Below, piece by piece: positions 42,114 to 50,479 of a stretch of 57,385 nt of DNA. Every line of letters begins with the position of its first letter. Positions within the stretch are counted from its first letter, which is position 1. A model generated the notes under the pieces. It was not told where the DNA came from and searched no databases. It saw only the letters and a list, made by a program, of their open reading frames with translations. Position numbers and translations under genes: made by a program. This DNA comes from an uncultured Ignavibacteriota bacterium. Its GTDB lineage: Bacteria > Bacteroidota > Ignavibacteria > UBA10030 > UBA8401. The stretch lies in contig CAISDA010000065.1 in the NCBI GenBank assembly GCA_903884005.1, positions 1-57,385 on the forward strand, written 5' to 3'.

Positions 42114-43376
42114 ATGGGTCACCATTTTCGCTATCGCAACAAAGAGATGTTCTGTGAAGGCGTTCGCCTTTCCGACATCGTGAAGGAAGTCGGATCGCCG
42201 GTATACATCTACAGCAAGAGAACACTGCTGGAGGCATACACGGAATTTGATACGGCATTTGCAAACGTCGATCATCTTGTTTGTTTCGCGATGAAGGCGA
42301 ACAGCAGCCTGAGCGTTGTGTCGCTGCTTGCGAAGGCCGGGGCGGGGATCGACTGCAATTCGGGCGGAGAGATCTTCCGCGCATTGAAGGCGGGCGCCCA
42401 TCCGAGCAAGATCATCTTCACGGGCGTCGGTAAGACCGAAGAGGAGATCCGCTTCGCGCTGCAATACGACATCCTCATGTTCAAGGTCGAATCGCGCAGC
42501 GAACTTCGCGCGATAGACCGCATTGCCGGAGAAATGGGAAAGAAGGCGCCGGTCGGCATTCGCATCAATCCGAATGTCGATCCTAAAACGCATCCGTACA
42601 TCGCCACCGGACTCGCCGAAGATAAATTCGGCATCGACCAATCCATGGCATTCGAATCGTTCGGACTCGCAGCCTCGCTGCCGAATCTTCGCGTGGTCGG
42701 TCTGGACATGCACATCGGTTCGCAGATTGTCGACGTGGATCCCTTCGTCCAGGCTGCAACGAAGATGGCGGTGCTGGCGCTGGAATTGAAAAAGGCCGGG
42801 TTCAATATCGAGCACTTGGATATAGGCGGCGGAATGGCGATTCCCTATAAAGTCGAGAAGCCCGCGTCGCCGAAGGATCTGGCCGACGCGATCTCCTCCA
42901 TCTTAAATGTGACCGATTGCAAGATCCTCTTTGAGCCGGGACGTTTTCTTGTGGGCAACGCCGGCGTGCTCGTGACGAAAGTGCTCTACACAAAGAAGCA
43001 CAAGAATAAAAATTTTCTCATCGTCGATGCCGCAATGAACGACCTCATACGGCCCAGTCTCTACGACGCCTATCATAAAATACGCGCGGTGGAACTGAAA
43101 AAAGTAGAGACCATGGTTGCGGACATCGTCGGACCCGTGTGCGAATCGGGAGATTTTTTCGCGCACAACCGGACGATCAACAAGTGCAAACAAAATGACC
43201 TCCTTGCCATCATGTCTGCCGGCGCATACGGATTCACCATGAGTTCGAACTATAATGCCCGGTTGCGTGTGCCCGAGGTGTTAGTGGACGGAAATAAATT
43301 TTACGTTGTGCGCGACCGTGAAACCTACGACGACCTCATTCGCGGCGAACGGATCCCCGAGGAGCTGGTGAAATAG
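42114..43376 (+). CDS. lysA: Diaminopimelate decarboxylase LysA
   Basis: PLP enzyme of fold type III that makes L-lysine from meso-diaminopimelate. The Schiff-base Lys61 lies in CFAMKANSS, followed by GIDCNSGGEIFRA, HIGSQI, GGGMAIPY, the PLP-phosphate site EPGRFLVGNAG, the partner-subunit Cys in CESGDFF (about 342) and the substrate Tyr in AYGFTMSSNYN. Length 420 is standard. The 120-bp gap before it shows only a small hairpin GAGAT-tgc-ATCTC; no lysine riboswitch is seen. A GC-rich hairpin and the GntR gene follow. Confidence 0.95.
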   Translation: MGHHFRYRNKEMFCEGVRLSDIVKEVGSPVYIYSKRTLLEAYTEFDTAFANVDHLVCFAMKANSSLSVVSLLAKAGAGIDCNSGGEIFRALKAGAHPSKIIFTGVGKTEEEIRFALQYDILMFKVESRSELRAIDRIAGEMGKKAPVGIRINPNVDPKTHPYIATGLAEDKFGIDQSMAFESFGLAASLPNLRVVGLDMHIGSQIVDVDPFVQAATKMAVLALELKKAGFNIEHLDIGGGMAIPYKVEKPASPKDLADAISSILNVTDCKILFEPGRFLVGNAGVLVTKVLYTKKHKNKNFLIVDAAMNDLIRPSLYDAYHKIRAVELKKVETMVADIVGPVCESGDFFAHNRTINKCKQNDLLAIMSAGAYGFTMSSNYNARLRVPEVLVDGNKFYVVRDRETYDDLIRGERIPEELVK

Positions 43377-43561: not shown

Positions 43562-44275
43562 GTGAACACTGTGCATACTATGCGCACGTCTCGGATCAAT
43601 CTGGACCGCGCTGAAATTCAGTCGCTGCGCGAAAAATTGGTCACGACGATCCGCGATGCCATCATCGAAGGCAAGATCAAGCCGAACGAACGCCTGACGG
43701 AAGAAAATGTTTCGATGATGCTGGGGGTCAGCCGCACTCCGCTTCGCGAGGCATTTCTGCAGCTCGAATCCGAAGGCTTTGTGAAAGTAACACCCCGCCG
43801 CGGAGCCGTTGTTGCCGAACTCTCCGAAAAAGATGCGGGAGAGATCTATCTCATTAAAAGCGTTCTGGAAGGCCTCGCAGCCGGGTTGGCCGCCTCACGC
43901 GCCCAACAACCGGTCATCGACAAGCTTGCCGCACTCAATGATCAGATGAGAGCCCATGTGTCTGCCAAGAAAAAAGACATGCGCATGCTCCTCGACCTCA
44001 ACTCCCGCTTCCATTCGCTGCTGAACGGCATCTGCGGGAATGAAAAATTGTACCAGCTCATAGACATCCTGCGCAAGCAGTCGCTCCGCTACAATTTTAT
44101 TTATGTCACGGGACTGTCCAATCTCGAACGATCGGTGCATGACCACGATGATATTATCGCTGCACTGAAACGGCAGGATGCGCAGGCCGCAGAAACTATC
44201 GTGAAGGCGCACAGCAACACCGCGCGTCAGGCATTGTGCGAATTCATTCACCAGCGCATGCTCGAAAGTAAGTGA
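43562..44275 (+). CDS. GntR-family transcriptional regulator with FCD ligand domain
   Basis: A 237-residue DNA-binding protein. The winged helix (about 20-88) reads REKLVTTIRDAIIEGKIKPNERLTEE and LGVSRTPLREAFLQLESEGFV, then the FCD all-helical effector domain (about 95-225) follows, with metal-binding His candidates in NSRFHSLL and HDHDDIIAAL. The start is GTG with GGGAG 5 nt upstream. It lies between lysA and the diamino-acid enzyme genes and most likely controls the latter; FCD proteins usually sense small carboxylic acids, such as a pathway substrate or intermediate. Confidence 0.9.
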   Translation: MNTVHTMRTSRINLDRAEIQSLREKLVTTIRDAIIEGKIKPNERLTEENVSMMLGVSRTPLREAFLQLESEGFVKVTPRRGAVVAELSEKDAGEIYLIKSVLEGLAAGLAASRAQQPVIDKLAALNDQMRAHVSAKKKDMRMLLDLNSRFHSLLNGICGNEKLYQLIDILRKQSLRYNFIYVTGLSNLERSVHDHDDIIAALKRQDAQAAETIVKAHSNTARQALCEFIHQRMLESK

Positions 44276-44318: not shown

Positions 44319-45224
44319 ATGAATAAGTTAAAAATTGCCATTGTCGGTTACGGAAACGTCGGACGTTCAGCACTGGAAGCGATCTCACAGGAACCGGATA
44401 TGGAACTCGTCGGCATCGTCCGCCGCAAAAATTCAGTTGGCGCAGATCAGCCCCTTGAACTCTCGCGCACAAAGATCGTCACCACGATCGCGGAACTCGG
44501 CAAAGTGGATGTCGCCGTGCTCTGCGGGCCGACGCGCTCTATCAAAGAGACGGCTTCGGAAATCCTGAAGCTCGGCATCAATACCGTTGATAGCTTCGAC
44601 ATTCACGGCGAAATTCCAGGTCTGAGGGCTGATCTCGGCGCAGTGGCGAAAGAACATAATGCCGTCTCCATTATTTCGGCTGGGTGGGACCCGGGAGTCA
44701 ATTCCGTTATCCGCGGTTGGTTCATGGCTATGGCCCCGAAAGGCATTACCTATACCAACTACGGCCCGGGCATGTCCATGGGACACACGGTTGCCGTGAA
44801 GGCGGTCTCGGGCGTGAAGAACGCGCTCTCCATCACCGTGCCTGCGGGCATGGGCATCCACCGCCGCATGGTGTATGTTGAATTAGAAGCAGGCGCGGCG
44901 TTCGAAGAAGTTGAAAAGAATATCAAGCAGGATCCGTACTTCATCAAAGACCGCACGTACGTGACGCAGGTGGAAAACATAGAGAACCTTATCGATATGG
45001 GACACGGCGTGCTCATGGAACGCAAAGGCGTCTCGGGCATCACCCAGAACCAGATCATGAAGTTCGAATTGAAGGTGAACAATCCCGCGCTCACGGCGCA
45101 GGTCATGGTGTCGTCGGCGCGCGCAACAATGAAACAGAAGCCGGGCTGCTACACAATGATCGAGATCCCCGTGGTCGATTATCTCTGCGGCGGCATCGAC
45201 GCGTTCGTGAAGTCACTCGTCTAG
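44319..45224 (+). CDS. ddh: Meso-diaminopimelate D-dehydrogenase-like enzyme
   Basis: NAD(P)-dependent amino-acid dehydrogenase of 301 residues. The N-terminal Rossmann motif is IVGYGNVGRSALEAI. The substrate half keeps marks of meso-DAP dehydrogenase: VDSFDIHGEIP, SAGWDPGVNSV, YGPGMSMGHTVAVKAVSGVKNAL, HRRMVYVELEAG and NNPALTAQVM, including Asp, Trp-Asp, Arg and Asn positions known to hold DAP. It may make meso-DAP for lysine and cell wall, with LysA close by. But it sits at the head of an aminomutase cluster, so it could instead oxidise an aminomutase product such as 2,5-diaminohexanoate or 2,4-diaminopentanoate. GGAG precedes the start. Confidence 0.8.
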   Translation: MNKLKIAIVGYGNVGRSALEAISQEPDMELVGIVRRKNSVGADQPLELSRTKIVTTIAELGKVDVAVLCGPTRSIKETASEILKLGINTVDSFDIHGEIPGLRADLGAVAKEHNAVSIISAGWDPGVNSVIRGWFMAMAPKGITYTNYGPGMSMGHTVAVKAVSGVKNALSITVPAGMGIHRRMVYVELEAGAAFEEVEKNIKQDPYFIKDRTYVTQVENIENLIDMGHGVLMERKGVSGITQNQIMKFELKVNNPALTAQVMVSSARATMKQKPGCYTMIEIPVVDYLCGGIDAFVKSLV

Positions 45225-45232
45225 GAAATATC

Positions 45233-45664
45233 ATGGGCGATCCATACGCACGCAAACTGACGAATATAAATTTTTTCCATGCCAAGACCGCCGTCACCGG
45301 CAGAGTCGTCGTGGTGCTGGACGGTCTGCTGGAGAACCGCGGGCTGAATCTCATTCAGCCGATCTCCCGGGCGTTTCCGCACGGGTCAATCATCGAACTC
45401 ATCGGCACGGCCGAAAAGAACGTGGGTCCAGGAACTGTGGTGGAGACGATCGCGTATATCGCCTTCGTCGAAATGACCGCCGGCGGCGTGCTCTTGGTCG
45501 GCGACGAACTCGTGTGGAACGATACGGTCATCGGCACCATCGCCGGCTACGACGATACGCATGTGCCAAACCACCAGAACACGATCGTCCTCATGAAGGA
45601 ACGCGTCTCCGGCAAGGGGATGGGCATGAAGGCCGGCGACGAAATTTTCATCAAAGGTTTTTAA
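45233..45664 (+). CDS. Conserved-looking 143-residue protein of unknown function
   Basis: It begins 8 bp after the dehydrogenase gene. The protein looks beta-rich and soluble: VTGRVVVVLDGLLENRGL, HGSIIELIGTAEKNVGPG, TAGGVLLVGDELVWNDTVIGTIAGYDD, VPNHQNTIVLMKE and a short GDEIFIKGF end. No signal peptide, membrane helix, Cys cluster or known motif is seen. The regular GTIAGYDDTHVPNHQN segment, with Asp and His residues, could be a ligand or metal site. Its place between a dehydrogenase and a PLP enzyme suggests a small enzyme or subunit of the same pathway. I do not recognise the family. Confidence 0.7.
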   Translation: MGDPYARKLTNINFFHAKTAVTGRVVVVLDGLLENRGLNLIQPISRAFPHGSIIELIGTAEKNVGPGTVVETIAYIAFVEMTAGGVLLVGDELVWNDTVIGTIAGYDDTHVPNHQNTIVLMKERVSGKGMGMKAGDEIFIKGF

Positions 45665-45738: not shown

Positions 45739-47202
45739 ATGTCAGCTCCCAAATATCGATTTCAGATGTATAAAAAATTACAGCAGTCGATGCCGGCCAT
45801 TTATGCCGACGCGAAAAAAGCAGCCGAGTCTCTCAATATCCCAGCAGAATTAAAAGGCGCCTTCGGCCTTACCGGCGCCATTTCGGGCTGTCCCGCTCCG
45901 CTTCGCGACGATATCGAACATGCGATGCAGACCGAGGGAAAGAAGGTCGTGCCGCTTGCGGTGTACGTGGACCAGATCCGCGAGATCGTGAAGGACGTGT
46001 ATGGCGACGGGTACGACGCCTGCCCGATCAACACGTGCGAAGCCGGCCTCTGGGTCTCGTTCGATACGCTCATGACGCCTCCCGCACTTGGCCGCGGCGA
46101 CAATTATCGCACGCGCTACATTGCGCCGCTCGAACGCCACATGCATCATCAGGCGGCATACGGCCGTCCGTTCCCCGCGAAGTATAAGGACATTCTTGCA
46201 GACCGCGGCGTCGCCTCGGGCGAACTCGGGTTTTACGGCAAACGCCAGAATAATTTCGACACCGTCATGGTCCCGCTCGAAGGAGCCGATTATACGGTGC
46301 ACGGCATTAAACCGTGGTCCACTCCGCTGCTGAAGAACGTGAAGGCGAAAGCATCCCTCGCATCCATCGAACAGGCTGCACAGACCAATGCGCATCTGCT
46401 CGGCGGCTTTGCCTCCATCGGCTACGACACGCCGGGATACGGATACGGCGAGAAGGACGAAAACGGAACGCCGCTGCTCTCGAAAGGCATCGCCGCAATC
46501 GCAAAAAAATACAACGTGCCCTACGTCATGGACAATGCATGGGGTTTGCCTTTCGTCGGCACAAACATCAAGAACGTCGGCGCCGATGTCATGATCTATT
46601 CAATGGACAAGGCAACCGGCTCGCCCACCAGCGCACTCATCATCGGCAAGGAAGATGTGATGGTAAACATCCGGCGCGCCATGGGTGTGCACGGCAACCG
46701 CGCGGGCTCGATGTCGTACGGCAAGGCCGCCTATGTCGGATTCGATCCGGGCAAGGAAGCCCTCGCGGGCCAGGTCGCCGCATTGAAAGTGCTGCGCGAC
46801 AATCCCGCCAAGGCGAAGAAGCCGGTGGAAGATCTGTTCGCCGTCGTGACGGCGGAATTCGACAAGATCGACCCGCGCCTCAAACCGTTCTTCAAGATCT
46901 ACAAGAGCTACAACTCGGGTGCGGTCGAAGTGAACTACGAGGACAGCTGGGCGAACGGCAAGATGGGCATTCCCATTTTCTCGATCGAAGACATGTACGC
47001 CAGCACCAACCTCTTCCAGGACGGCTGCGCGCAGATGGGCATCATTCCCACGATCGCCTATGACGGAAACTTCTTCATCTCGCCGGGCCTCGGAACGACG
47101 GATAATCAAGGCAACCTGATCCCGGAACGCATGGCCATGGCGGTGCGCGGTCTCGTGATGCTCGTCGAGATCGTTTCGAAATACGCAGGCATTCTCGACT
47201 AA
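45739..47202 (+). CDS. Fold-type-I PLP-dependent enzyme of unknown reaction
   Basis: A 487-residue enzyme. The PLP pair of fold type I is clear: Asp265 in YVMDNAWGLPFVG and the Schiff-base Lys291 in YSMDKATGSPTSALIIG. An unusual 160-residue N-terminal part carries AISGCPAPLRDDIEHA, CPINTCEAGLW and HMHHQAAYGRPFP, with Cys and His residues that could be functional. The C-terminal part has YKSYNSGAVEVNYEDSW and SPGLGTTDN. It resembles the SelA / aminotransferase V-like branch, but I cannot name the reaction: transamination, beta-elimination, or C-C cleavage of a keto-amino acid are all possible. AAAGGA 7 nt upstream sets the start. Confidence 0.78.
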   Translation: MSAPKYRFQMYKKLQQSMPAIYADAKKAAESLNIPAELKGAFGLTGAISGCPAPLRDDIEHAMQTEGKKVVPLAVYVDQIREIVKDVYGDGYDACPINTCEAGLWVSFDTLMTPPALGRGDNYRTRYIAPLERHMHHQAAYGRPFPAKYKDILADRGVASGELGFYGKRQNNFDTVMVPLEGADYTVHGIKPWSTPLLKNVKAKASLASIEQAAQTNAHLLGGFASIGYDTPGYGYGEKDENGTPLLSKGIAAIAKKYNVPYVMDNAWGLPFVGTNIKNVGADVMIYSMDKATGSPTSALIIGKEDVMVNIRRAMGVHGNRAGSMSYGKAAYVGFDPGKEALAGQVAALKVLRDNPAKAKKPVEDLFAVVTAEFDKIDPRLKPFFKIYKSYNSGAVEVNYEDSWANGKMGIPIFSIEDMYASTNLFQDGCAQMGIIPTIAYDGNFFISPGLGTTDNQGNLIPERMAMAVRGLVMLVEIVSKYAGILD

Positions 47203-47288: not shown

Positions 47289-47525
47289 ATGAATACAGCA
47301 ATGAACAGCGTGATGGATGCGATCGATATCGAAACCTATATCGTGTGCGCAACGGCCGCCGAGGGCAAAACGCTTGCGCTTGCGCTCGGCCGCGAAATGA
47401 ATCTCGGCGATGTGGACATCATGTTCGAAGAATTCGACGGCTATGGCATGCGCCTCCGAATGCGGAAATACATCTACCGGCCCGGGGCACGGTACGAGTG
47501 GCTCGCGGCCCGTGTGAAGGCATGA
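47289..47525 (+). CDS. 78-residue protein, possible small subunit of the B12 enzyme
   Basis: The product has DIETYIVCATAAEGKTLALALGR, then MNLGDVDIMFEEFDGYGMRL and a basic MRKYIYRPGARYEWLAARV end. It is soluble, with no signal or membrane helix. GGGAG 9 nt upstream supports the ATG at 47289; earlier start codons at 47217 or 47280 lie before or on the terminator and are unlikely. It is directly upstream of the cobalamin protein. Ornithine 4,5-aminomutase also has a small subunit (OraS) encoded next to the large one, but I see no sequence match, so that role is a guess. Confidence 0.55.
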   Translation: MNTAMNSVMDAIDIETYIVCATAAEGKTLALALGREMNLGDVDIMFEEFDGYGMRLRMRKYIYRPGARYEWLAARVKA

Positions 47526-47554
47526 ACCCGTCATAACGATAAGGAATGGAAACG

Positions 47555-49360
47555 ATGGCAAAAATTCTCTGCGTACCGCTCGATCCGGTGCACGATGTCG
47601 GCATCAAGATCATCAACGGCGAACTCGTCAAACACGGGCACCAGACGCTGCTGCTCCAGCCCGACCTGCCAATGGAGACGATCGTCAAGAAGGCCTCGGA
47701 AGGAGAGTATGACTTCATCATGGTCAGCCGTACGCTAGGGTACGGGGTTGCCGAACTCCTGGCCCGCTTCACCGACCTGCTCGATGCCGCCGGCATCCGC
47801 GAACGCTCGAAGGTCGTGATCGGCGGCAAGCCCGTCACGCCCGAACTTGCGGCCGAACTCGGCTACGACAAAGGCTTCGGCGCCCAGTCGTCCATCGACG
47901 AGATCATCGCCTATGTGGAAGGGCGTGAGCTCCCGAAGGAAGCCGCGGGACTCACGAGAACGAAGAAGGATATTACCGGCGGGTACTCGTATAGATTTTT
48001 CGACGCGGAGGTCGAATCGCTCCTGAACTCGATCTGCGACAAGCTCCTCGCGTGGGCCGAACGCAGAACCTCCCCGGGCGTGGAGCGGATGAAGCTCCGC
48101 GACGCCATGCTGCACACAGCCGATAGTGCGGCGGCGGCGGAATCGCGCGTGCGCTACAACGCCCTCTGCGACGCGGTGATCGTGGATGCGAACCACCACA
48201 ACATCCTGCCCAAGGGAGTGCGCACGGTCTCGAATGAGGAACTGGGTGCGCTCTCGTCGTTTCTCTCGGCCTCCTTGCCATACCAGCCGGTGCGCATTCA
48301 GCACAACGAGAAGCAGCCCGTCGTCTTCAAATTTTTAGGCAGCGGATGCCCGATCATGGACATTACGCACGGCAAGATCTGCGAGCGCTGGGGAATCAAC
48401 GGCTTCCTTATCATCAATCCCTCGTGGGAAGCCCGGTACGAAGGATTGATCGAAGGATGCCTGACGCATGAGAACGACGGCACCATCACATCGCTCGAGA
48501 ACATACGCCTCATGCGCCAAAGCCTCGACGAATCCACACTGCTCACCGTGCGGGCGCATCGGGGACTCAACACGCCCGAGACGGTGCTGCTCGCCGGCGA
48601 GGCCGGAGCAAATCTGTCCAAGATCGATTTGGTCTACGGTTCGCTCGGCGCAGGCACGGACCCTGAGCGCATCGTGGTGGACGGGATCGAAGCGATGAAA
48701 CTCTGCGCGCGCTACAACATGGCGTTCGACATCCCGGGGAACGACGAACTGAGCGGGGTGCCCGCGTGGAAAACGCTCGCCGGCCTGCTCATCAATGTGA
48801 TGCTCGGCAAGAAACTGGGCGCGAAGGCGATACTGAAGCCGCTCTTCTGCTACGGGCCGCACATCGTGCTGAACGGACAGATGAAACAAAATTTCGTGGA
48901 TTACAACTCGGCAAAAATTTATGCGCTACGGCATATCGTGGATTGTCCGATCTGGCCCGGCGAGCCGATCGCATTCATGACGCAGTCCGAGGAACGCATT
49001 CAATCGGCCAATACGACGTCGTATCACGCCGCGCTGGCAGCCACACTCGGCGTGGATGCGATCACCATCGCCTCGACCGACGAAGCATATTCGCGCGGAC
49101 CCATCTGCATCACCTCGCGCATCGATACGATACGCGCAGTGACCGATGCGTTCCGGTTCATGGGCGACGCACAGATCGCTCCGAGCCCGATGGCGGCAGA
49201 GTACACGGACGAACTGTTGACAAAGATCAAGGACGTGCTCCGCGAGGTCGCCGCACTTCCGACACTGCACGAGGCGATCTATGCGGGCCTCCTCGGCAAC
49301 GAGGAAGACGGCGCGTATCCCGGAAAATTCGGCGCCGGTACCGTAACGCTCACCATGTAG
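47555..49360 (+). CDS. Cobalamin-dependent aminomutase-like protein, B12 domain fused in front of a KamD/OraE-like barrel
   Basis: A 601-residue protein. Residues 1-130 are a B12-binding Rossmann domain of the KamE/OraE type: LCVPLDPVHDVG with cobalt-ligand candidate His13, FIMVSRTLGYG, LLDAAGIRERSKVVIGGKPVTP and ELAAELGYDKGFGA. Residues about 230-601 resemble the TIM barrel of lysine 5,6-aminomutase alpha (KamD): PIMDITHG, GTITSLENIRLMRQSLDE, PETVLLAGEAGANLSKIDLV, DPERIVVDGIEAMKL, and a GLLGNEEDGAYPGKFGAG-type end. In OraE the order is barrel then Rossmann, so this is a rearranged fusion. The Lys that holds PLP in KamE (11 residues after the His) is Leu here. AAGGA 9 nt upstream supports the ATG at 47555. 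The stop codon lies in a palindromic repeat. Confidence 0.72.
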   Translation: MAKILCVPLDPVHDVGIKIINGELVKHGHQTLLLQPDLPMETIVKKASEGEYDFIMVSRTLGYGVAELLARFTDLLDAAGIRERSKVVIGGKPVTPELAAELGYDKGFGAQSSIDEIIAYVEGRELPKEAAGLTRTKKDITGGYSYRFFDAEVESLLNSICDKLLAWAERRTSPGVERMKLRDAMLHTADSAAAAESRVRYNALCDAVIVDANHHNILPKGVRTVSNEELGALSSFLSASLPYQPVRIQHNEKQPVVFKFLGSGCPIMDITHGKICERWGINGFLIINPSWEARYEGLIEGCLTHENDGTITSLENIRLMRQSLDESTLLTVRAHRGLNTPETVLLAGEAGANLSKIDLVYGSLGAGTDPERIVVDGIEAMKLCARYNMAFDIPGNDELSGVPAWKTLAGLLINVMLGKKLGAKAILKPLFCYGPHIVLNGQMKQNFVDYNSAKIYALRHIVDCPIWPGEPIAFMTQSEERIQSANTTSYHAALAATLGVDAITIASTDEAYSRGPICITSRIDTIRAVTDAFRFMGDAQIAPSPMAAEYTDELLTKIKDVLREVAALPTLHEAIYAGLLGNEEDGAYPGKFGAGTVTLTM

Positions 49361-49417: not shown

Positions 49418-50479
49418 ATGCACCTCATGCACATCATCGGAATCGTTGGCACTGCAAAAAATACGGGGAAGACGACGACGCTCGCCGCGCTCATCCGGGA
49501 AGCCGGCCGCAGGCGCGAGCGCATCGGCGTGACCGGCATCGGCTACGACGGGGAGGAGATCGACACCGTCACTGGGCTGCCGAAGCCGCGCTTGCTGCTG
49601 CAGCCGGGCACCATCGTTGCCACTTCTGAACGGTGCCTGCTCACAACCTCCGCCGAATATACCGTGATCAAACGTACGGAGACGCACACCGCGCTCGGGG
49701 CCGTCATTATTGTTGAAATTCTCAAGGCCGGACTCATGGTGCTTGCCGGCCCCAATACGAAGCGGCTGCTTCAAGGCCTCATCGCGGAGCTGGAGGGCAT
49801 GAACCTTGCTGCATTGTTTGTGGACGGTTCGCTCAACCGCATCGCCGCAACGGCCGTTGTGGACACGATGGTCTTCTCGACCGGCGCATCGCGCACCGTC
49901 GACCTTTCGTTCTTAGCCGAAGAAGCGCGCGCGATCATCAGTGTGTTTAAAGGAAAAAATTACGATCTTGCTTCGTCGCCCCTCGGCATCGCTCTGCATG
50001 ACGCCTCGGGCGTGCTCGTGAAGCACCTGGCCATGCGCTCCCTCTTCGATGCGGACGATGCGCGCTCTGCTGTGGAATCGATGACCGTCCCGCCGGCAAG
50101 CATGGTTATACCGAACATGGTGTCGCTTCAGGCGCTTGAGTACATGACCGAGAGGCTCCGGGCACAGCCTCACGCACCTATGGCGATCATTGTCAACGAT
50201 CCGACGATCGCGCTCCTTGCGGGCGAGCCCATCGCAGTGCGGCGGTGGATGGATAGTGCTGCCGGGCATGGGATGTCCATCGGCTACCGCCATGCAATAC
50301 GAGCGGCGGCAATGACCGTCAATCCGTTCTATCCGTGCCAGCACGATCATGCATTTATGCCGGCGTACATCGACAAGGACTCGCTGCTCCATGCGGTGAG
50401 TGCCGCAGTGGACGTTCCAGTCTACAATATCATGGACGAAGGAGCGGCATCGGCGCTCTATGAATTGCTACTCTTATGA
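49418..50479 (+). CDS. P-loop NTPase, possible aminomutase reactivase
   Basis: A 353-residue protein starting with a Walker A loop, GIVGTAKNTGKTTT (Lys18), then GVTGIGYDGEEIDTVTG (a possible switch region), LVLAGPNTKR-like VLAGPNTKRLLQG, LFVDGSLNRIAA (Walker B-like) and a long second half with no known motif. The TAKNTGKTT loop resembles SIMIBI-class GTPases/ATPases that serve metal- or cofactor-dependent enzymes. Directly behind a B12 enzyme, a role in exchanging damaged cobalamin, like KamB/KamC or MutL-type reactivases, is plausible but unproven. The ATG at 49427 is an alternative start; the open frame's earlier ATG at 49367 lies in the repeat and is rejected. Confidence 0.65.
   Translation: MHLMHIIGIVGTAKNTGKTTTLAALIREAGRRRERIGVTGIGYDGEEIDTVTGLPKPRLLLQPGTIVATSERCLLTTSAEYTVIKRTETHTALGAVIIVEILKAGLMVLAGPNTKRLLQGLIAELEGMNLAALFVDGSLNRIAATAVVDTMVFSTGASRTVDLSFLAEEARAIISVFKGKNYDLASSPLGIALHDASGVLVKHLAMRSLFDADDARSAVESMTVPPASMVIPNMVSLQALEYMTERLRAQPHAPMAIIVNDPTIALLAGEPIAVRRWMDSAAGHGMSIGYRHAIRAAAMTVNPFYPCQHDHAFMPAYIDKDSLLHAVSAAVDVPVYNIMDEGAASALYELLLL

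Follow-up and report, generated by a model that had tools for sequence, protein, structure and literature searches.

A putative adenosylcobalamin mutase with an aminomutase-type barrel and no recognisable lysine for pyridoxal phosphate, encoded in a conserved operon of Ignavibacteria

In this work we describe an operon on a stretch of 57,385 nucleotides (the window) of an uncultured Ignavibacteriota bacterium (GenBank assembly GCA_903884005.1, contig CAISDA010000065.1), the central gene of which encodes a large protein composed of a B12-binding Rossmann domain followed by a barrel of the type found in KamD. Lysine 5,6-aminomutase, made of KamD and KamE, and ornithine 4,5-aminomutase, made of OraE and OraS, are well-known enzymes requiring both B12 and B6. 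It appears to us somewhat better than an even bet, with a probability of roughly 0.55, that the large protein and a neighbour of 78 amino acids form a two-subunit adenosylcobalamin (AdoCbl) radical mutase, which shares the fold and probable ancestry of these aminomutases and works without pyridoxal 5'-phosphate (PLP). As far as sequence goes, this reading is built on the domain order, the cobalt-binding histidine, the absence of the segment bearing the PLP lysine, the replacement of the side chains that hold the PLP phosphate, and an operon with a KamB-like gene; predicted models lend it support through the KamD fold of the barrel and the dimerisation-domain fold of the 78-residue protein.

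The open reading frame (ORF) of the large protein spans positions 47546 to 49360 of the forward strand and has 604 amino acids, the ATG at 47555 being the start favoured by its relatives (Table 1). An earlier interpretation made from the letters alone, here called the sequence-only reading, had placed the B12 domain first and the barrel second, and this order is borne out by the PF02310 match at the N-terminus and by the predicted model, in which residues 153 to 604 take the KamD fold (1xrs_A; Z 31.1, root mean square deviation 3.1, 377 aligned residues). Other KamD structures scored much the same (8t0v_A, Z 31.0; 9q1a_C, Z 30.7), followed by glutamate mutase E (Z 26.2), OraE (Z 23.7), further barrels at about 18 and those of dihydropteroate synthase at about 16-17, while Foldseek gave E-values of 7.1e-16 for KamD, 2.2e-10 for OraE and 7.1e-10 for GlmE. 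The model was built from eight sequences and has a mean predicted local distance difference test score (pLDDT) of 73 and a predicted template modelling score of 0.72; the VIA comparison from which the Z-scores are taken barely tests the B12 domain, as the tool itself warns.

Sequence comparison of the barrel points the same way. A profile of the barrel matched an alignment of three KamD and OraE sequences with an E-value of 3.6e-6 over 326 columns, as against 0.4 for an alignment of two GlmE sequences with a slightly cut C-terminus. This supports the kinship with KamD, KamE and OraE rather than glutamate mutase that had been supposed at the outset. The Pfam model PF09043 is matched weakly by the barrel of the window (16.3 bits, cut-off 25) and, at E-values up to 1, by nine of the 12 members of the family (best E 4.6e-5); the PF09043 search of the organism's own genome added nothing, and no control responded in it. 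Membership of the glutamate mutases was considered and rejected, with the GlmS model TIGR01501 at 17.1 bits against a cut-off of 135.8 and the GlmE profile value given above; the Pfam matches of the 12 members included no GlmE family. The label of aminomutase given by the sequence-only reading is not supported either: the KamE beta-subunit model NF052385 scored 47.3 bits (cut-off 280), the OraE model NF040743 46.7 bits (cut-off 800), and the KamD alpha-subunit model NF052384 (cut-off 600) had no match at E 0.001 in the organism's genome, so that no aminomutase family model is reached at its cut-off, and the residues expected to contact the substrate differ as well (see below).

In the B12 domain the cobalt-ligand motif reads D-x-x-H-x-x-G, with one residue more between Asp and His than the D-x-H-x-x-G of KamE and OraE. 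This form, already pointed out in the sequence-only reading, is kept in all seven covering rows of a first alignment and in all 11 covering rows of a 12-row alignment, the twelfth row (L003; relatives' loci are labelled L and genomes G) being truncated before the motif. KamE carries its PLP lysine 11 residues after the ligand histidine (H133 and K144), and the corresponding residue here is Leu27, as had been claimed. It had further been claimed that a lysine is found only at +5; K21 does stand there and is conserved, and there is a second lysine at +13 (K29), which is not conserved. The loop after the ligand histidine was rightly described as shortened: it is four residues shorter than that of OraE, which needs a four-residue insertion in the alignment, and it aligns without gaps to the corrinoid protein 1y80. 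The lysine is missing in every row of the family that covers its place. Judged by these alignments, the OraE-type segment that carries the PLP lysine is absent altogether, which goes beyond a point mutation. In a tree of the B12 domain with 25 rows (11 family members, the truncated L003 being left out, five canonical sequences and nine selected loci with a B12 domain only) the family forms one clade (support 100/98). Its placement among KamE/OraE, GlmS or corrinoid proteins was not separated, and long-branch warnings were raised, so that a family which lost the lysine and one which never had it both stand.

The barrel residues that would hold PLP are also changed. In lysine 5,6-aminomutase, according to PMC3958899, the phosphate is contacted by Arg184, Arg268, Ser189 and the main chain of 187-189, and the other PLP contacts are Lys144, Ser238 (pyridine nitrogen), Tyr263 (stacking) and Asn299 (phenolic oxygen). 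The numbering of F. vincentii KamD and of 1xrs_A is the same in this region. In all eight aligned rows KamD R184, G187, Q188, S189 and R268 are replaced by N291, W294, E295, A296 and A369, and the replacing residues are themselves invariant in the 12 members. The substrate contacts of OraE are likewise exchanged, E81 for F263 and H182 for K359 and, when read with a numbering offset of 3, R297 for W470 and Q299 for G472. The sequence-only reading had left three options, namely that PLP is held elsewhere, that it is supplied by the adjacent PLP enzyme or that the enzyme is not PLP-dependent; on these alignments the last now looks the most probable, given that all 12 members have other residues in place of the side chains that bind the phosphate as well. 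The argument is a chemical one and leans on the conservation of other residues at those very positions. For the radical part of the chemistry, Glu338 of OraE is stated in PMC4413051 to help homolysis of the Co-C bond; its candidate counterpart is E513, which hhalign pairs with KamD E411 and MAFFT does not.

The dimerisation domain of KamE and OraE does not lie within the large protein. The large protein had been described as a fusion of what KamE and KamD keep apart, which holds for the joining of Rossmann domain and barrel; the N-terminal dimerisation domain of KamE is left out of it, and is probably encoded by the separate ORF of 78 residues just upstream. This ORF is kept in every locus covering its place, and the idea that it encodes the dimerisation domain was written down ahead of the structure search. 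When the best of its predicted models was compared with 350,542 PDB chains by Foldseek, OraE and KamE took ranks 1 to 4 (E 0.025-0.17, probability 1.00), and with VIA they took ranks 1 to 6 (Z 6.2-6.7, the next entry scoring 5.2), with superpositions of 1.5 Å over 51 residues for 1xrs_B and of 4.7-5.1 Å over 71-74 residues for the others. The ranking of the predicted fold picks the expected family out of the whole PDB, with modest scores. The OAM_dimer model PF16554 had no match in the organism's genome or among seven small proteins, two of which matched TSP_NTD in Pfam instead (best E 0.0016). With hhalign the small protein was placed at OraE 509-546 with a non-significant P of 0.07, and a profile of three dimerisation domains gave P 0.0019 locally and 0.025 globally; hmmsearch against PDB sequences returned unrelated weak matches only. 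Six loci (L026, L027, L028, L085, L086 and L087) show a four-base overlap (ATGA or GTGA) between the small gene and the large one, provided that the large gene starts at the codon aligned with its relatives, and in the window some 20-30 bases separate the two. In L002 (7047-7964) and L025 (7655-8566) they are separated by a CorA gene, and the gap in L084 is of similar size. Going by the predicted fold, the 78-residue protein is probably a separated dimerisation domain.

Several observations weigh against a PLP-free two-subunit mutase. Some active-site loops of the large-subunit model have a pLDDT below 50. The PLP-stacking Tyr263 of KamD is kept as Y364 in all 12 members, and N399 is an asparagine next to the place of KamD N299, aligned with the asparagine beside OraE His225 (with the offset of 3, and uncertain); these two residues would be compatible with a different type of PLP site. 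KamD N299 itself aligns with D400, again with uncertain placement, and S238 faces a gap in the MAFFT alignment and R339 in that of hhalign, so that the pairings R339/S238, N399/N299 and E513/Glu338 all vary with the aligner. Background divergence is also high, since of 103 columns without variation in three canonical sequences the family keeps only 22, so the loss of PLP contacts is by itself statistically unremarkable. For the 78-residue protein no Foldseek match reaches E 0.001, the Z-scores stay under 8, where by the tool's warning they may mean merely a common arrangement, the five models are uneven (mean pLDDT 83 for the best and 72 to 60 for the other four), and the dimerisation domain was not significantly detected by any sequence method. 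A PduO-type adenosyltransferase is present in all 12 genomes searched for it, three of them without the operon, and shows therefore only that AdoCbl can be made. The genome searches were confined to one phylum.

The best of the alternatives, which we hold to be doubtful, is an aminomutase whose substrate is neither lysine nor ornithine and which retains PLP, bound either without a covalent link or by one of the barrel's invariant lysines such as K262, K359 or K431. Several lysines are indeed invariant in 12 out of 12 members, Y364 sits at the place of the stacking tyrosine, and the order of dehydrogenase, small protein, PLP enzyme, small subunit and mutase parallels that of a canonical ornithine operon found in the same class (L029, below). 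PMC4256349 moreover states that in ornithine 4,5-aminomutase the lysine leaves PLP upon substrate binding, so that the rearrangement does not obviously depend on it. All three of the phosphate-holding side chains of KamD have become N, A and A, however, no substitute phosphate motif was identified, and K262 adjoins the position of OraE E81 instead of occupying it.

A corrinoid protein of the methyltransferase type, working with methylcobalamin and without radical chemistry, is unlikely: the gap-free alignment of the B12 loop with 1y80, the unsettled tree of the B12 domain and the pterin-binding dihydropteroate synthase barrels at Z of about 16-17 could be quoted for it, but the barrel is far nearer to KamD in fold (Z 31) and matches KamD and OraE in sequence, and both the KamB-like and the dimerisation-domain-like partners belong to radical aminomutases. 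Still less probable is delivery, in which the neighbouring PLP enzyme would hand over a substrate already joined to PLP and the mutase would need neither a lysine nor a phosphate site of its own. Operon membership is the sole positive evidence for this second option of the sequence-only reading, both genes being found in the same five of 247 genomes, and the PLP enzyme retains Asp267 and Lys293; the operon has five other conserved genes, PLP enzymes usually retain their cofactor, and phosphate contacts should be needed even for a PLP adduct that arrives ready-made. That the missing cofactor-site residues mark a degenerate, inactive aminomutase heading for loss is hardly credible given the signs of strong selection, i.e., a mean column identity of 75% over 12 rows, full-length matches without internal stops, a lack of variation where the PLP residues used to be and the conservation of the operon.

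Table 1. Coordinates of the mutase, its functional sites and the surrounding operon in the window.
Feature	Position	Strand	Evidence
GntR/FCD regulator, operon head	43562..44275	+	Pfam, locus comparison
meso-Diaminopimelate dehydrogenase family	44319..45224	+	TIGR01921; best PDB match 3wb9
DUF6917 protein, conserved operon member	45233..45664	+	Pfam, alignment
Probable PLP-dependent enzyme, conserved operon member	45739..47202	+	Weak DgaE/SelA and Cys/Met-metabolism matches
78-residue protein, predicted KamE/OraE dimerisation-domain fold; probable small subunit	47289..47525	+	Conserved ORF, predicted structure
Large subunit: B12-binding Rossmann domain, then KamD-type helical region and triosephosphate isomerase (TIM) barrel	47555..49360	+	ORF, Pfam, relatives, predicted model
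B12 (Rossmann) domain, residues ~5-125	47558..47920	+	PF02310, residues 14-114, E 5.3e-10
Cobalt-ligand motif D13-P-V-H16-D-V-G19 (D-x-x-H-x-x-G)	47582..47602	+	Family alignments
Loop/helix after ligand His, without OraE's lysine-bearing segment (L27 at His+11)	47594..47638	+	Alignments
Helical region and TIM barrel, residues ~150-604, nearest fold KamD	47993..49357	+	Predicted model, profile alignment
N291-P-S-W-E-A-R297, replacing KamD PLP-phosphate motif R184-x-x-G-Q-S189	48416..48436	+	Invariant 12/12
Y364 (KamD stacking Tyr263, kept) to A369 (KamD phosphate R268, lost)	48635..48652	+	Alignments
E513, candidate counterpart of OraE Glu338 (adenosyl ribose)	49082..49084	+	hhalign yes, MAFFT no
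KamB-like aminomutase reactivase, contains GTAKNTGKTT	49427..50479	+	196.4 bits, cut-off 210

The order GntR regulator, diaminopimelate (DAP) dehydrogenase, DUF6917 protein, PLP enzyme, small protein, CorA in some, mutase and KamB-like protein was found in all ten loci that are long enough, in one of which (L028) the KamB-like gene is cut by the contig end. The DAP dehydrogenase scores 334.3 bits with TIGR01921 (cut-off 180.6) and has a full-length match of 420 bits to the meso-diaminopimelate dehydrogenase 3wb9, differing from it in that the operon copy sits beside a mutase. Each of the nine operon genomes has one copy over the cut-off, on the operon contig, and the three relatives without the operon have none (one of them has a weak match); since the enzyme tracks the operon, it probably serves the pathway of the mutase. 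The scores of the KamB-like proteins with the KamB model lie under the cut-off in L026 (188.0) and L087 (208.8), as in the window, while F. vincentii KamB scores 387.8; the genes of the remaining loci were compared by BLAST only. Neither a match to the KamD model nor OraS (PF16552) was found in the nine operon genomes, with the OraE of G156 detected as control in the first search and G156 found as positive control in the second, and the client of the KamB-like protein is therefore probably the large protein.

For the PLP enzyme Pfam gives no match and NCBIfam weak ones only, of the DgaE/SelA type; it shares 71-93% identity with six aligned relatives and by these comparisons is a member of an uncharacterised family; the Asp267 and Lys293 which it keeps are, as we take it from what is known of such families, the likely cofactor residues. 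The DUF6917 protein has a conserved D-D-T-H-x-P-N-H-Q-N motif; its search against PDB sequences gave nothing useful and no literature on it was found among open-licence papers. LysA (42114-43376) was weighed as a possible member of the pathway and rejected, as of the loci that extend so far only the window, L001 and L002 have it next to the operon; with exactly one copy over the cut-off in all nine genomes (five of which have a further weaker match) it is probably the ordinary biosynthetic lysine gene. Other genes were seen in or next to the operons of relatives. In L003 (1824-4322) an Nramp and an MgtE_N/PRC protein are encoded between the mutase and the KamB-like gene, and the CorA, Nramp and MgtE_N metal transporter genes are possibly tied to cobalt or manganese supply. 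Two candidates for pathway genes are a DAO-family flavin adenine dinucleotide oxidoreductase directly 3' of the KamB-like gene in L025 (3583-4785) and a Na+/H+ antiporter-family gene downstream in L026 (11513-12997).

Relatives of the large subunit were identified in five of 247 genomes spread evenly over the phylum (the organism's own and four others), a further 12 being matched only through the B12 domain or an OraE, and in 13 of 60 genomes of near relatives, three more of which matched by the B12 domain only. This amounts to 14 genomes with a large subunit; the gene is split over contig ends in three of them (G249, G263 and G264), and the alignments do not include the fragments from G263 and G264. 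DUF6917 is found in exactly five of the 247 genomes and only alongside the operon, and the full-length PLP enzyme in five as well, with 25 others matching over a short stretch only; the genomes carrying mutase, DUF6917 and full-length PLP enzyme are identical. A search of viral contigs led nowhere, and among plasmids only an F. vincentii record was matched by the large protein. Core metabolic operons were seen on two 'plasmid' records (NZ_CP154629.1 and NZ_CP084075.1; L033 and L034; 2.6 and 2.1 Mb), which have the look of chromosomes under a wrong label. Positions 3114-11021 of L029 (G156:C33), in the same class, carry a canonical operon for ornithine degradation (Ord, OrtA, OrtB, OraS, OraE), and among the 247 genomes G156 alone has an OAM_dimer match; by eye, two more genes downstream resemble MutL and alanine racemase. 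Homology of the operon genes described here to those of the ornithine operon was tried and discarded, the pairs small protein/OraS, DUF6917/OrtA and PLP enzyme/OrtB giving no match.

Compared with the known systems, the family shares with KamD and KamE (1xrs, 8t0v, 9q1a; reactivase KamB) the whole KamD fold as predicted, the B12 Rossmann domain, the predicted dimerisation-domain fold of a neighbouring protein and the KamB-like neighbour. It differs in that the Rossmann domain is fused in front of the barrel, whereas in KamE it lies behind the dimerisation domain, which here is probably free-standing; in addition it has no PLP lysine, its PLP-phosphate residues are replaced and it scores below the family cut-offs. 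No KamC-like gene adjoins the mutase, and no model search for KamC was made. With OraE and OraS (3kow-3kp1) it has in common the same three domains and a similar operon layout, but there is no OraS in the nine operon genomes and both the PLP lysine segment and the PLP and substrate contacts are gone. The order of a probable separate dimerisation domain followed by Rossmann domain and barrel, as against barrel, dimerisation domain and Rossmann domain in OraE, amounts to a circular permutation. Glutamate mutase (GlmS/GlmE), an AdoCbl enzyme without PLP, has the same architecture of barrel and Rossmann domain, and differs in that the barrel has no significant sequence match to it (E 0.4), that its S subunit is matched with 17 bits only, and that its fold score is below that of KamD.

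How a PLP-free mutase of this kind might work can be sketched. The 78-residue protein would dimerise the enzyme and the Rossmann domain would carry AdoCbl over the barrel, where a substrate in a barrel no longer holding PLP would trigger homolysis, with hydrogen abstraction starting the reaction and a radical rearrangement coming next. The bare barrel, with its invariant basic residues (R339, K359 and others), may bind a carboxylate-rich amino acid directly. When PLP is lacking, chemical plausibility favours a rearrangement of the carbon skeleton, as in glutamate mutase, over the 1,2-amino shift that PLP assists, and the reaction would then more likely be of the former kind. In an amino-acid pathway, the steps before or after the mutase may be carried out by the DAP-dehydrogenase-type enzyme, the PLP enzyme and the DUF6917 protein, and the KamB-like protein would repair inactivated enzyme. 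Enzymes of the DAP dehydrogenase type act on D-amino centres, and our guess at the substrate, prompted by this neighbour and by the PLP enzyme, is a diamino dicarboxylate resembling diaminopimelate.

In its fullest form the proposal, put forward tentatively and with rather less than even odds, is that of a new class of AdoCbl mutase in a group of Bacteroidota/Ignavibacteria, in which the aminomutase scaffold would be permuted, its dimerisation domain freed and PLP dispensed with, and whose substrate would be a diamino- or amino-dicarboxylic acid, as part of a pathway not yet described, perhaps diaminopimelate turnover. No description of such a family was found in the titles and abstracts of open-licence papers on diaminopimelate in connection with aminomutases or its breakdown, on the KamB reactivase, on circularly permuted B12 aminomutases and on gene clusters with DAP dehydrogenase, and PLP independence, if proved, would make it a distinct enzyme class on a known scaffold. 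The freeing of the lysine-PLP tether is thought, according to PMC4256349, to let the B12 domain swing. If the family is PLP-free it would represent a natural experiment on the purpose of PLP and of the lysine tether, and it may preserve the state preceding the acquisition of PLP by the aminomutases. It would also reveal a reshuffling of the scaffold, with three domains circularly permuted and one of them separated from the others, and would draw attention to an unassigned amino-acid pathway, several genes of which are uncharacterised.

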